Origin: a virus
Virus record (IMG/VR): IMGVR_UViG_3300028821_000038
Span: 98,315-162,314 of that record
DNA: 64,000 bases
Strand: one strand, 5' to 3'
The notes beneath the pieces are model-generated. The model had not been told where the DNA came from. It worked only from the letters and a program-made list of their open reading frames with translations, and ran no database searches. Below are positions 40,687 to 46,645 of this stretch, piece by piece. The number at the start of each line of letters is the position of its first letter. Position 1 is the first letter of the stretch. The position numbers and the translations under genes are program-made.

Positions 40687-42255
40687 ATGCCTAAGAGGAT
40701 TACCCAGTCACAGTTTGCTCAGGCTACATTGGAACTTAAAGGGAAGCCTTTTGGGTTTACTCTGCACGCGCCCTTTAGGGAGATATACGATTGGCCCAAG
40801 AGGCGAATATTACTCAAGACTGCACGACAGGTTGGGAAATCTACCTTTTTGTCTGCTCATTCTCTTACAAAATGTGCTACCAAAAGTCATAGGAGAGTAT
40901 TTTATGCTTCCACTTCAGAGAAGCAGGCCCGGGAATTTGCCAGGGTAAAACTAAATGAATTGCTTAGCAGAAGTCCAAGAATAAGAAATATTCTTTTAAA
41001 TAAGAGTGTGGGGGATATAAACGATTCCGTTTTTGAGAAGCAATTTTCAAATGGCTCAGGAATCACTGTTTCATATATGAAAGAAAATGCGGACCGAACC
41101 CGCGGGTACTCAGCTGATGATTTGATGCTCGATGAAGTGCAGGATATGGATCCGTCCGAAATTCCGATTGTAGAAGAGATCCTGTCTGCTTCACTGGATC
41201 CTTCCAGGTTTTATACTGGAACCCCTAAGACACTCGATAACCATATTGAGCACAAATGGCAACTATCTACCAAGCACGAAGTATTTTTTAGATGCAAATC
41301 ATGTCGCAAGCTCAATAGTATTGGCTATAGAAATATAGGCAAAAAGGGGCCAATATGCACTAGTTGTGGTGGTCTATTGGATATAGCTGGAGAACATATA
41401 TGGGTGCCAACATATGATAGGACGGGGCCAGAGCCCTACTATCTTGGTGCTAGGGTTCCACAGCCAGCTCTATTGCTACATGCGGGCTTTCCCGAAAAAT
41501 GGAAAGATTTGCTCTTTAAATATGAAACATATGACGAATCAAAATTCTCAAATGAGGTGCTGGGCTTATCTCATAGTACTGGTACTAGATTTCTCACTCT
41601 CGATGACATTATCAACCATTGTAACGGTGAGGTGTGCCTGGACATGCCTACAGAGCGGACATTCCGACTGTATGATATGCTTGTAATGGGAATAGACTGG
41701 TCTGGGGATGGTGTGAGTGAGGTTTCAAGAAATGCTGTTGTCATTTTAGGGAGGAGAGCAGGTGATCCAAAACAGAGATTGCAAGTGGTTTACAAGAAAA
41801 TATTCCCTAGGGGGGATATGCTGAAGATTGTAAAAGACATAGTGATGATTGCCAATTTGTTCAGGGTAAGGGTTGTGGGCGCAGATGCAGGAGAGGGTGC
41901 ACTAAACAACTCGTATATAGCTGATTCACTGGGTGCCCACAGGGTACAGCCCTTTAGATATGGGGCATATGATCTTCCTATTAGAATGTCCAAGGATATG
42001 CGGACAGTATATCTGGATAAGACTAGCGCAATAGATGATATTTTCAAGAAGATTAAAGAGGGGCAATTTATATTTCCCCCATATGAAACATTCAAACAGG
42101 AGACTAGTGATATCTTGGCTGAATTTGAAATGGTTACCAACAGCGGGAGAAAGGTGTATACTCACAGTCCAAACGATCCGGACGACTGGCTTCACGCTTT
42201 GACATTTGCATACAATGCGTACAAGATTGCGGTAGGAGCGGTCAAGTTCTATTAA
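40687..42255 (+). CDS. terL: Terminase large subunit (TerL)
   Basis: 522 residues. It pumps DNA into the prohead and cuts it. ATPase: Walker A TARQVGKST (about 45-53), Walker B LMLDEVQD (146-153). A Cys4 insert follows (FRCKSCRKLN…ICTSCGG, CxxC at 203-206 and 224-227). The RNase H-like nuclease domain shows GIDWSG (about Asp337), VVGADAGEG (Asp400) and DDWLHAL near the C-terminus. AAGGAG lies upstream. The zinc insert is found in some TerL subgroups. Confidence 0.93.
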   Translation: MPKRITQSQFAQATLELKGKPFGFTLHAPFREIYDWPKRRILLKTARQVGKSTFLSAHSLTKCATKSHRRVFYASTSEKQAREFARVKLNELLSRSPRIRNILLNKSVGDINDSVFEKQFSNGSGITVSYMKENADRTRGYSADDLMLDEVQDMDPSEIPIVEEILSASLDPSRFYTGTPKTLDNHIEHKWQLSTKHEVFFRCKSCRKLNSIGYRNIGKKGPICTSCGGLLDIAGEHIWVPTYDRTGPEPYYLGARVPQPALLLHAGFPEKWKDLLFKYETYDESKFSNEVLGLSHSTGTRFLTLDDIINHCNGEVCLDMPTERTFRLYDMLVMGIDWSGDGVSEVSRNAVVILGRRAGDPKQRLQVVYKKIFPRGDMLKIVKDIVMIANLFRVRVVGADAGEGALNNSYIADSLGAHRVQPFRYGAYDLPIRMSKDMRTVYLDKTSAIDDIFKKIKEGQFIFPPYETFKQETSDILAEFEMVTNSGRKVYTHSPNDPDDWLHALTFAYNAYKIAVGAVKFY

Positions 42256-42302
42256 GTGTTGTTTTGATATGCTGCATATATACTTTGAGTTTGGAGGAAT
42301 AT

Positions 42303-43160
42303 ATGGCCAATAAGTAGTATCAGCCATTTATAAAATGGGTAGGCGGCAAGAGAGGATTGCTTGAGCAGTTGCTTCCGTTTTTTCCTTACGGGTTTAATAG
42401 ATACCATGAGCCGTTTGTTGGGGGTGGTGCCGTTTTTTTTGAGTTGTATTCTTGGGGTCTTCTAAAGAATAAAGATGTTTATCTGTCAGATATCAACAGT
42501 GAGCTTGTGAATGCATATCTGGTAGTAAGAGACAAGCCCGATGATCTACTTGAGAAACTAAAGGCACACAAAGAGCAGCACTCTAAAGAGTTCTATTATA
42601 AAATCAGAGAGTTAGACCGGGCTGATGATTTTAAGAACTTGCCTGATGTAGATAGAGCTGCAAGATTTATCTATCTCAATAAAACATGCTTCAATGGCCT
42701 CTACAGAGTAAATAAGAAGGGATACTTCAATACTCCAGTAGGTTCATATAAAAATCCAAATATCGTGGATACTGATACTATTCTAAATGCAAGCGAGGCA
42801 TTGCAGGGGGTACACATAGAGTGTAGAGGGTTTGAAGAGGTGATAAATAATGCAGATAAAGGTGATCTTGTATATCTGGATCCTCCATATTATCCGCTTA
42901 GCACTACATCCAGCTTTACATCATATGATAGTAATTGTTTTCTCGAGGATGAGCAATATAAGCTTTATGAAGTTTTTGATAAATTGTTCACCAAAGGATG
43001 CTATGTAATAGAAAGCAATTCTTACACAGAGTTTATTAAAAGGTTGTATTTTAAGTTTCATATAGAAACAGTATACGCCAATAGAAGCGTCAACTCGAAG
43101 CCCAACAATAGGGGCCCTATTCCAGAGGTGGTGATTGTTGGAGGTATATCATTGGTATAG
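42303..43160 (+). pseudogene. dam: Dam-type DNA adenine methylase with amber codon 5
   Basis: ATG 42303 has GGAGGA five bases upstream and reads MANK, then TAG (42315-42317), then YQPFIKWVGGKRGLLEQL, the conserved SAM-binding start of Dam enzymes. The rest is complete, with the catalytic DPPYYP (LVYLDPPY) and a normal length of about 280 residues. The only start after the TAG is TTG 42357, which would remove FIKWVGGK and should give an inactive enzyme. MANKQYQPF would be a normal Dam start, so TAG fits a CAG-to-TAG change. It is either a null mutant or read through. Confidence 0.8.
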
Positions 43161-43227
43161 GCTTGAGTTTTATTTGGGAGTGTTTTTTTGGGCGCACAAA
43201 AGTATTTTGTAGATATGCTGCCAACAT

Positions 43228-43235
43228 TGTACAAT
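43228..43235 (+). promoter_or_regulatory. TACAAT-type -10 element
   Basis: TGTACAAT, 24 bp before ATG 43259. The stretch GATATGCTGC just upstream (43212-43221) also occurs before the Dam gene (42266-42275). Confidence 0.35.
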
Positions 43236-43258
43236 ATTAAAAAAATATGGAGTACCAG

Positions 43259-44077
43259 ATGAACACTGTCAATAAGAGAAAAAACAACGATTCAAGTGGC
43301 AGATCTGTTATAGCTGCACTTGGGGGGCTTGCTGCTTCGAAAGCCAGCAAGGAAGTACATCACGGTATTATGAGTAGAGGACTCAAAAAATTGCATTTTG
43401 AGGGAGATACCCCTCTGTCAAAAAAAGAGATAGAGGATATTAGAAAGGCTGTCGGGGCAGACCCAAAACTTCCTGTTCTTACAAATAATACCGAGCTTCT
43501 TAATCACCTTATGGATAGTTGGTATAAACAGTTCAGGAAAATTGGCTATGACGAAAAAAAGGCAGAAGCTCTTGCTGAGAAAAACGCAAAAGAAATGTTT
43601 AAGCGGAGTCATGGAGGTCCTCATTATCATAGGCTTTTCGGTTATATCTATCAAGGGGGGGAGGGAGGAAACAGTCCTACCGCTTTGGCTCATGAGTTTA
43701 CACATAGCACATCTCCTACAATAATGAATATTTCGCATATAGCTTCGAGTGTGCTTAAAACCCCCGCTACTATTTATGCTGGATATAAAGCTATTAATGA
43801 TGACAATGGATTAAGCAAAAAAGAGGCAGCTGGGCTTGCTGCCGTAATGGCACCTATGCTTGCAGAAGAAACCAGGGCCAACCATGGTGCGTATAAAGCA
43901 ATGAAAAAATTACACGGAAAGCTAACTTCCGAGATGAAAAACATGCTTCTATTGTCTGAAGGGTCATATGTGCTAGGCGCTACTGCTCCATTCATTGCGT
44001 ATGGTTTAGCCAGAGGAGGAAAGAAGGCTTATGATAAATTTTTTAAAAACGATAAGAAGGGCAGGGAAAAATCTTGA
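43259..44077 (+). CDS. HExxH zinc-metallopeptidase-like protein (copy 1)
   Basis: 272 residues. GGAG (43250-43253) favours ATG 43259 over the ATG at 43247. Residues 143-151 read LAHEFTHST, the HExxH zinc site. A third ligand may be Glu in LAEETRAN (about 202-208). Flanking helices are Gly/Ala-rich (AGYKAIN…, IAYGLARGG), and the N-terminus is basic. It is about 40% similar by eye to the next gene. Such enzymes in a head-gene cluster could be virion peptidases for entry or maturation; no classic prohead protease fold is recognised. Confidence 0.7.
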   Translation: MNTVNKRKNNDSSGRSVIAALGGLAASKASKEVHHGIMSRGLKKLHFEGDTPLSKKEIEDIRKAVGADPKLPVLTNNTELLNHLMDSWYKQFRKIGYDEKKAEALAEKNAKEMFKRSHGGPHYHRLFGYIYQGGEGGNSPTALAHEFTHSTSPTIMNISHIASSVLKTPATIYAGYKAINDDNGLSKKEAAGLAAVMAPMLAEETRANHGAYKAMKKLHGKLTSEMKNMLLLSEGSYVLGATAPFIAYGLARGGKKAYDKFFKNDKKGREKS

Positions 44078-44898
44078 AAAAAAGAAACAAAAAAGATGAA
44101 GAGTATTTAGATACTGCTGTGACTACAGGTGGGAAGGGGCTTGCTGGATATCTTGCTATGAATGGGGCGAATATGGCTTTTAGTTCCACCAACAAAGGTC
44201 TAGGCCGTATAGGGCAATACGGCACAGGAGTACCAGTTACCGAGTCCGACATACACAAAATAAAAAAGATTGTCGGTGCTAGAGAGGATATGCCTGTATA
44301 TACATCTTCTTCTGAAATATACAACGCCAAAAAAGATGTATTTTATAACAGGGCCAAAAAGATACTTGCAGATGCAGTCAAAAAAGGCAACCCTAAGAGT
44401 ATAATGACCGAGGAAAATTATAAAGGGGTTGCGAAGCAGTTGGCTAAACATGAAGCATCGAATACTCACTATAGCCCATCGTTTGACCATGTGGTGATTT
44501 CCAAGGATTACCATAACGATCCTCTTGCGATAGCGCATGAATTGACTCATTCTACAGCGTCAAAAATCGGAACACGCCTTTACGGTCTGTCTAGGAGGCT
44601 GCATGCTCCGGCAGCACTTTATGCTGGATATAAGGGTGCCAGTGATGATGGTATGGATAAAAAGGATGCGGCAATCGTGGGGGCCGCTGTCTTGCCTATG
44701 CTCGCAGAGGAGACCAGGGCGAATATCAATGGCTACAAAGCAGCAAAAAAGCTATACGGTAAGCTGCCCTCCAAATCATTAGCTACACTTATCGATTCGC
44801 AAGGTAGCTATATGGCATATGGCGCAGTTCCTCTGGCAGCATACGGGCTTGGTAGATTGTTCAATAAAGGTTACCATAAAGCTATGGATGAAAAATGA
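44074..44898 (+). CDS. HExxH zinc-metallopeptidase-like protein (copy 2)
   Basis: 274 residues. Start TTG 44074 overlaps the previous stop (TTGA). IAHELTHST holds HExxH at 155-159; the AEETRAN segment (about 211-217) repeats the candidate third ligand, with nearly the same spacing as copy 1. Shared features: VTESDIHKIKKIVGA / SKKEIEDIRKAVGA, HAPAALYAGYKG / KTPATIYAGYKA. A tandem duplicate with both zinc sites kept, so both are probably active. Confidence 0.7.
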   Translation: MKKRNKKDEEYLDTAVTTGGKGLAGYLAMNGANMAFSSTNKGLGRIGQYGTGVPVTESDIHKIKKIVGAREDMPVYTSSSEIYNAKKDVFYNRAKKILADAVKKGNPKSIMTEENYKGVAKQLAKHEASNTHYSPSFDHVVISKDYHNDPLAIAHELTHSTASKIGTRLYGLSRRLHAPAALYAGYKGASDDGMDKKDAAIVGAAVLPMLAEETRANINGYKAAKKLYGKLPSKSLATLIDSQGSYMAYGAVPLAAYGLGRLFNKGYHKAMDEK

Positions 44899-44904
44899 TA
44901 TAAT
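44896..44904 (+). promoter_or_regulatory. Extended -10 promoter
   Basis: TGATATAAT spans the end of the 44074 gene and lies 26 bp before ATG 44931. It matches the TGnTATAAT elements elsewhere in the window. Confidence 0.5.
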
Positions 44905-44930
44905 CTTAAAAACCATTTAAGGGGTAAATT

Positions 44931-45709: not shown

Positions 45710-46645
45710 ATGACTACTGAAACACCAAGTGTAAAACAAACCAATGCGACTTTGGTTAGAAAGATATATCAGTCTCCTGAACTCCTGAAAGAGGCGATGG
45801 AGAACTCTACCTACTTTATTCGTGAGAAAGTCCGTGAACTTGGATTTGCGAGAAAGCTGATAGAGCCTATCTTTGTAACCGCTGCAGACCTCGACAGAAC
45901 TGTTGAAAATGATCAGCCTACCATTATCCTCGAAAAAGATATGGAGGCCAAGGCGTACACTCTCCCGTTCCGTGGACAAGGTGAGAGTAAATACTGGGAA
46001 GGCGATAAATTCCTTATCACATTCCAAAAAGTAGAGTCTGATCACTTCAATAAGTCTAAATTTGAGATGATGAACAGCAAGACCGACTATAAGACGCTTC
46101 TTCAAAAGCGTATAGTTGAAGAGATGTTCAAAACCGAAGATGAGACTATGCTGGCGGCATTTAACAAGGTTATTGCGGATGCAGAAAATACAGCACCCGG
46201 AACACAGTTCCAGCAAGTGACTGGTGGACTCACCAAGACAAACATCAAAATTCTGATTCAGATGCTTTCCAAGCTCAGAATGCTTCCTCCTGCTGGCGGA
46301 CCGAAGCCCAAAATTCTGATGAACCAGACCCTGAAGATGGAACTCATTGAGCTCGGTATGATCGAGATTGGTGATAGCAATGTTGGTAAGTATTGGAATG
46401 AAGGAACAGTGGGTGTAAGCTCTCTGTTTGGAGTACCTGTTGTGGATACCATCAAGAACGATCTTGTAAAAGACGACGAGATGTATATAATTGCACCGCA
46501 GGACTACTTCGGAAGATTCTTTATTCTCCAGGACCACACAATGGTTATCAAGACCGAAGCTGATATGATTAACTTTTGGTCGTATTCTTCCATGGGTCTT
46601 GGACTTGCAAACACAAAAGGCGTTGCAAAGATACAACTGGTATAA
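45710..46645 (+). CDS. Major capsid protein (probable HK97 fold)
   Basis: 311 residues. GAAGGAG precedes ATG 45710. N-terminal helices (LVRKIYQSPELLKEAMENS) are followed by an extended region with FREKVRELGFARKLIEP-like charge alternation. A long spine helix with YKTLLQKRIVEEMFKTEDETML and a C-terminal beta domain (IIAPQDYFGRFFILQDHTM) suit the HK97 type. Codon use looks well adapted, with few rare codons. It is followed by a bidirectional terminator. No long prodomain is obvious. Confidence 0.8.
   Translation: MTTETPSVKQTNATLVRKIYQSPELLKEAMENSTYFIREKVRELGFARKLIEPIFVTAADLDRTVENDQPTIILEKDMEAKAYTLPFRGQGESKYWEGDKFLITFQKVESDHFNKSKFEMMNSKTDYKTLLQKRIVEEMFKTEDETMLAAFNKVIADAENTAPGTQFQQVTGGLTKTNIKILIQMLSKLRMLPPAGGPKPKILMNQTLKMELIELGMIEIGDSNVGKYWNEGTVGVSSLFGVPVVDTIKNDLVKDDEMYIIAPQDYFGRFFILQDHTMVIKTEADMINFWSYSSMGLGLANTKGVAKIQLV

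Follow-up and report, generated by a model that had tools for sequence, protein, structure and literature searches.

The dam gene of this large environmental phage is a broken member of the D12/Dam-family N6-adenine methyltransferases (PF02086, TIGR00571), in which an in-frame amber codon separates a short leader from an otherwise complete enzyme, and we think it probable that this is a real and recent null (nonsense) allele of a methylase that the phage had acquired as cargo. The gene lies in an IMG/VR virus record of 162,314 bases, of which bases 98315-162314 form the window (the whole stretch of 64,000 nucleotides analysed here). The features on which the argument turns are the following, in positions of the window:

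42256-44930, plus strand: cargo segment, consisting of dam and two paralogous genes, between the terminase and the next conserved gene
42293-42298, plus strand: Shine-Dalgarno sequence GGAGGA, 4 bases 5' of the ATG (from the sequence)
42303-42314, plus strand: leader ATG GCC AAT AAG (MANK), start at 42303 (from sequence and translation)
42315-42317, plus strand: in-frame amber TAG, inside the tandem AGTAGT (42313-42318)
42318-43160, plus strand: rest of the Dam frame (D12 class, DpnM-like), 280 codons plus a TAG terminator at 43158-43160
42327-42350, plus strand: motif X, FIKWVGGK (placed by aligning the frame with 2dpm and E. coli Dam)
42357-42359, plus strand: TTG, the first start codon 3' of the amber; a restart here would give a product without motif X
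42879-42890, plus strand: catalytic motif IV, DPPY (from sequence and translation)

Sequence and translation agree exactly, coordinates included, with what an earlier note on this DNA had described: GGAGGA, an ATG and MANK-TAG-YQPFIKWVGGK stand in one frame, the codons TAT CAG CCA TTT ATA AAA TGG GTA GGC GGC AAG following the amber TAG directly. The same note had claimed a complete enzyme after the amber, DPPY included, and the absence of a start between the TAG and the FxKWxGGK motif, and both claims were upheld by the 280 open codons with near full-length matches to PF02086 and TIGR00571 and by the lack of any in-frame ATG, GTG or TTG between the amber and FIKWVGGK, the first start being the TTG at 42357, past the motif. 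Among the 150 called genes of the contig, dam is the only one in which a ribosome site and an ATG lead to a nearby in-frame stop with a homologous continuation reaching that stop, and because it is the sole such case we do not attribute the frame to chance; an upstream mini-frame precedes three more genes, whose own starts are each provided with a good ribosome site. Given the AGTAGT context, the stop could have come about either through a base substitution or through the duplication of a triplet. An antisense frame at 41926-42327 (133 aa) had no family match and was set aside.

The frame after the amber matches PF02086 (MethyltransfD12) over profile positions 1-252 of 253 (E 5e-63, 213.6 bits, cut-off 22) and the NCBIfam model TIGR00571 'dam' over positions 2-266 of 267 (E 3e-82, 276 bits, cut-off 114.85). 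Among solved structures it comes closest to DpnM of Streptococcus pneumoniae (PDB 2dpm, D12 class; E 7e-70), with E. coli Dam next. The likeness to DpnM extends over residues 12-280 of 284 and takes in motif X, motif I (EPFVGGGA, 3' of motif X), DPPY and the C-terminal part, whereas the phage frame has a TAG after codon 4 and the phage contig carries no restriction gene. Judging from this homology to DpnM and Dam, the enzyme would be specific for GATC. Motif X, motif I and DPPY are thus all present, and the sole start 5' of motif X is cut off from them by the TAG; no other D12, N6_N4 or C5 methylase was found elsewhere in the contig.

The label of SAM-binding motif that the earlier note had given to FIKWVGGK is slightly inexact, the element being motif X and the SAM loop being motif I, but the need for the element does stand, as in T4 Dam the lysine of motif X (K11) serves to position the catalytic aspartate (PMC3814359). 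By homology the last lysine of FIKWVGGK would be expected to play a similar role. This bears on the suggestion that translation restarts at TTG 42357 or at TTG 42369, the second of which is preceded by AGGA, to give a truncated product that has activity or binds GATC. Ribosomes could reinitiate some 40 bases after terminating; the product, though, would lack motif X and its lysine, and the homologues keep motif X. Because motif X holds the lysine needed for catalysis, activity is not expected to be restored by a restart 3' of it, the shortened product being predicted to be inactive, and we consider an active or GATC-binding restart product extremely improbable.

The nearest relatives of the phage protein are encoded in Campylobacterota MAGs and are mostly 60-69% identical to it, and in the tree the phage protein falls inside the Campylobacterota clade (support 100/99), its exact position there being unresolved and its end branch 0.44 long. 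All 50 homologues of at least 54% identity have an in-frame start within an open leader 5' of the motif, a distance of 12 codons being the commonest; since some leaders have as few as 3-6 codons, one of 4 or 5 codons in the phage is nothing unusual in itself. The earlier note had envisaged relatives whose Dam starts 3' of the motif as a case that would speak against its reading, and none was encountered, all 50 starting 5' of the motif and keeping it. The comparison with relatives at the amber site that it had proposed showed sense codons there: none of the 50 has a stop at this position, and the motif-adjacent codon, always sense, specifies Lys, Gln or Glu in 36 of them. Of the 52 columns that 95% or more of the homologues conserve, 51 are unchanged in the phage protein, the exception being V for I, which points to constraint until recently and hence to a recent inactivation; with the rest of the enzyme intact, 'fresh' was an apt word for the null mutation that the note had proposed. 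The orphan Dam methylases of phages (PHROG 56, with more than 1000 phage records matched) belong to the same family and share the stand-alone arrangement, yet they are at most 47% identical to this protein among the matches listed, and the present gene differs in its in-frame amber.

No phage nearly identical to this one, whether its copy was intact or broken in the same way, came up in exact-pattern and protein scans of viral contigs, from which very near records may have been left out; among phage records, a search with the DNA gave nothing beyond a distant 116-base match. Since there is one copy only in the collections searched, the main rival to a recent null allele is a consensus error, that is, a wrong base call or a misassembly in a metagenome contig whose true dam gene is intact and active. 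An error would suit a gene that is intact and conserved apart from exactly one lesion, in a record that is a single metagenome-derived contig with no second copy found in those collections. Against it, the contig has no general excess of broken genes, with frames of up to 1440 codons and none interrupted in the roughly 15 kb compared, and a substitution to a stop or an in-frame triplet insertion is an uncommon assembly error. We regard such an error as possible, with a likelihood well short of even, and we infer that the allele is present in the phage population. Two observations do count against a null allele: the otherwise fully intact dam frame with its phage-like base composition would fit a functional, suppressed gene or a sequence error too, and the phage species is represented by a single copy among the collections searched, in which neither fixation nor polymorphism is seen. 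A literature search returned no relevant paper on amber alleles of phage Dam genes.

The earlier note had left two branches standing, a fresh null mutation on the one hand and read-through, suppression or recoding on the other. According to the latter, a host suppressor tRNA or leaky termination would let low-level active Dam be made, perhaps as a control of dose. In its favour, neither the ribosome site nor the start nor any part of the downstream enzyme has been lost, a little Dam might be enough, and the Lys, Gln or Glu found next to the motif in most homologues can be delivered by known amber suppressors or by near-cognate tRNAs. Yet the 150 called genes end in TAA (77), TGA (41) or TAG (32, dam's own terminator included), so that TAG, closing 21% of genes, is an ordinary terminator in this contig, and no suppressor tRNA with a CUA anticodon was found in the 162 kb by ARAGORN or Rfam, tRNA-Leu(UAA) being the only tRNA. 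Second stops shortly downstream are not more marked after TAG (14 of 32) than after TGA (20 of 41), and no homologue has a stop at the amber site, which is therefore not a conserved recoding site. Programmed read-through through a stimulatory RNA structure was rejected, the local fold being no better than that of shuffled sequences (z 0.5).

Reassignment of TAG (code 15) was likewise ruled out by stop-codon use and tRNA content. Code-15 phages in which TAG is read as Gln, crAss-like ones for example (PMC9523058), are similar in being large and in having an in-frame TAG within a gene, but here TAG is a frequent terminator, reading it as Gln joins no frames and gives no systematically longer ones around dam, and the suppressor tRNA is lacking. 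No gene broken by a stop was seen in the approximately 15 kb that could be aligned to related-phage proteins; the 17 alignments containing stops, considered as candidate interrupted genes, were discarded as antisense or off-frame shadows, with one case lying 5' of the terminase start, as judged from reading the list. Because TAG stops are ordinary, no suppressor tRNA is present and no gene is interrupted in this region, recoding or efficient suppression at the dam amber is unlikely, and suppression specific to this gene is unsupported. We accordingly leave read-through yielding some active Dam, for instance by means of a host suppressor tRNA, a small probability, and a smaller one still to the amber being a functional low-dose or host-dependent switch, by which Dam would be made only in hosts or stages with partial UAG reading and would tune the methylation of phage DNA. 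Of the two branches it is the null that stands, on a normally terminating TAG, the missing suppressor tRNA and homologues with sense codons; read-through or recoding gained no positive support.

Six related phage contigs, with terminases 55-74% identical to that of this phage, do not have the cargo segment, and the gap between the terminase and the next conserved gene is at most a few hundred bases in these relatives as against 2.7 kb here, from which we conclude that dam is cargo. Its GC content, 37.9%, is close to the phage mean of 40.2% (sd 2.9), so dam is not glaringly foreign. The other two genes of the segment (43247-44077 and 44074-44898) encode adjacent paralogous proteins, 39% identical, with the HExxH-like motifs LAHEFTHS and LAHELTHS, and neither protein matches Pfam, PHROG or NCBIfam. 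Further along, the protein of 45710-46645, 61-87% identical in related phages, is probably the major capsid protein, as it weakly resembles a family of HK97-fold major capsid proteins (NF042927, E 2e-5, short of the cut-off).

The phage dam was probably taken from a bacterial restriction-modification system of Campylobacterota origin. Dam genes of that phylum, their products mostly 60-69% identical to the phage protein, are found in DpnII-type loci (for example L021, L023 and L050), where, unlike the phage gene, they have an open leader. The bacterial loci combine, in varying ways, dam, a gene of about 190-200 codons, a DpnII endonuclease and a DpnA-like methylase. The endonuclease (PF04556) is present in 14 of the 30 genomes holding the closest relatives and has no match in the phage contig. 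Among the Campylobacterota GATC restriction-modification loci L021, L022, L023, L035 and L050, a 'GIGGxNTQTGxxFE' protein is encoded 3' of dam in L022, L035 and L050. In L022 and L035, neither of which has a DpnII gene in the locus sequence, this protein, like the gene of about 190-200 codons, is assigned to the nuclease-like PF20472 of PD-(D/E)XK type, and it is perhaps an alternative endonuclease. Two further loci with Campylobacterota-type dam and DpnII genes, L032 and L068, are binned as Flavobacteriaceae and Parcubacteria, placements that are probably binning errors. Campylobacterota would also be the host phylum, as suggested by these relationships; the terminase had no match in 397 Campylobacterota genomes, in a search that had no positive control.

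The ratio of observed to expected GATC is 0.44 for this phage and 0.46 for its six relatives; the Campylobacterota loci have 0.38, and more distant phages 0.99. That phages avoid GATC when their hosts carry the matching endonuclease has been described before, for all 46 such phages (PMC6286503). Because GATC is already avoided here, the loss of methylation may be tolerable for the phage. The most avoided palindromic tetramer of this phage is ACGT, at 0.21 of expectation compared with 0.63 in related phage contigs, which suggests a second restriction specificity.

Placing these results into a model of a recent nonsense allele, exposure of the phage lineage to GATC restriction would have led to GATC avoidance, and one member of the lineage would have acquired a DpnM-like GATC adenine methyltransferase as cargo, whose job when intact would presumably have been to methylate the GATC sites of the phage against DpnII-type restriction. 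In the sequenced genome ribosomes would load at 42303, make MANK and halt at the TAG at 42315, and any restart at TTG 42357 or later would give a protein devoid of motif X and, for that reason, without activity.

In phage genomics a broken methylase is in itself nothing out of the ordinary. Read-through, only if it were shown, would bear on phage recoding, and the present evidence speaks against it. If the nonsense allele is real, it would show a phage in the course of losing an anti-restriction methylase that it had acquired, with the older avoidance of GATC kept up by its lineage, and would be a small but testable example of the coming and going of cargo genes.
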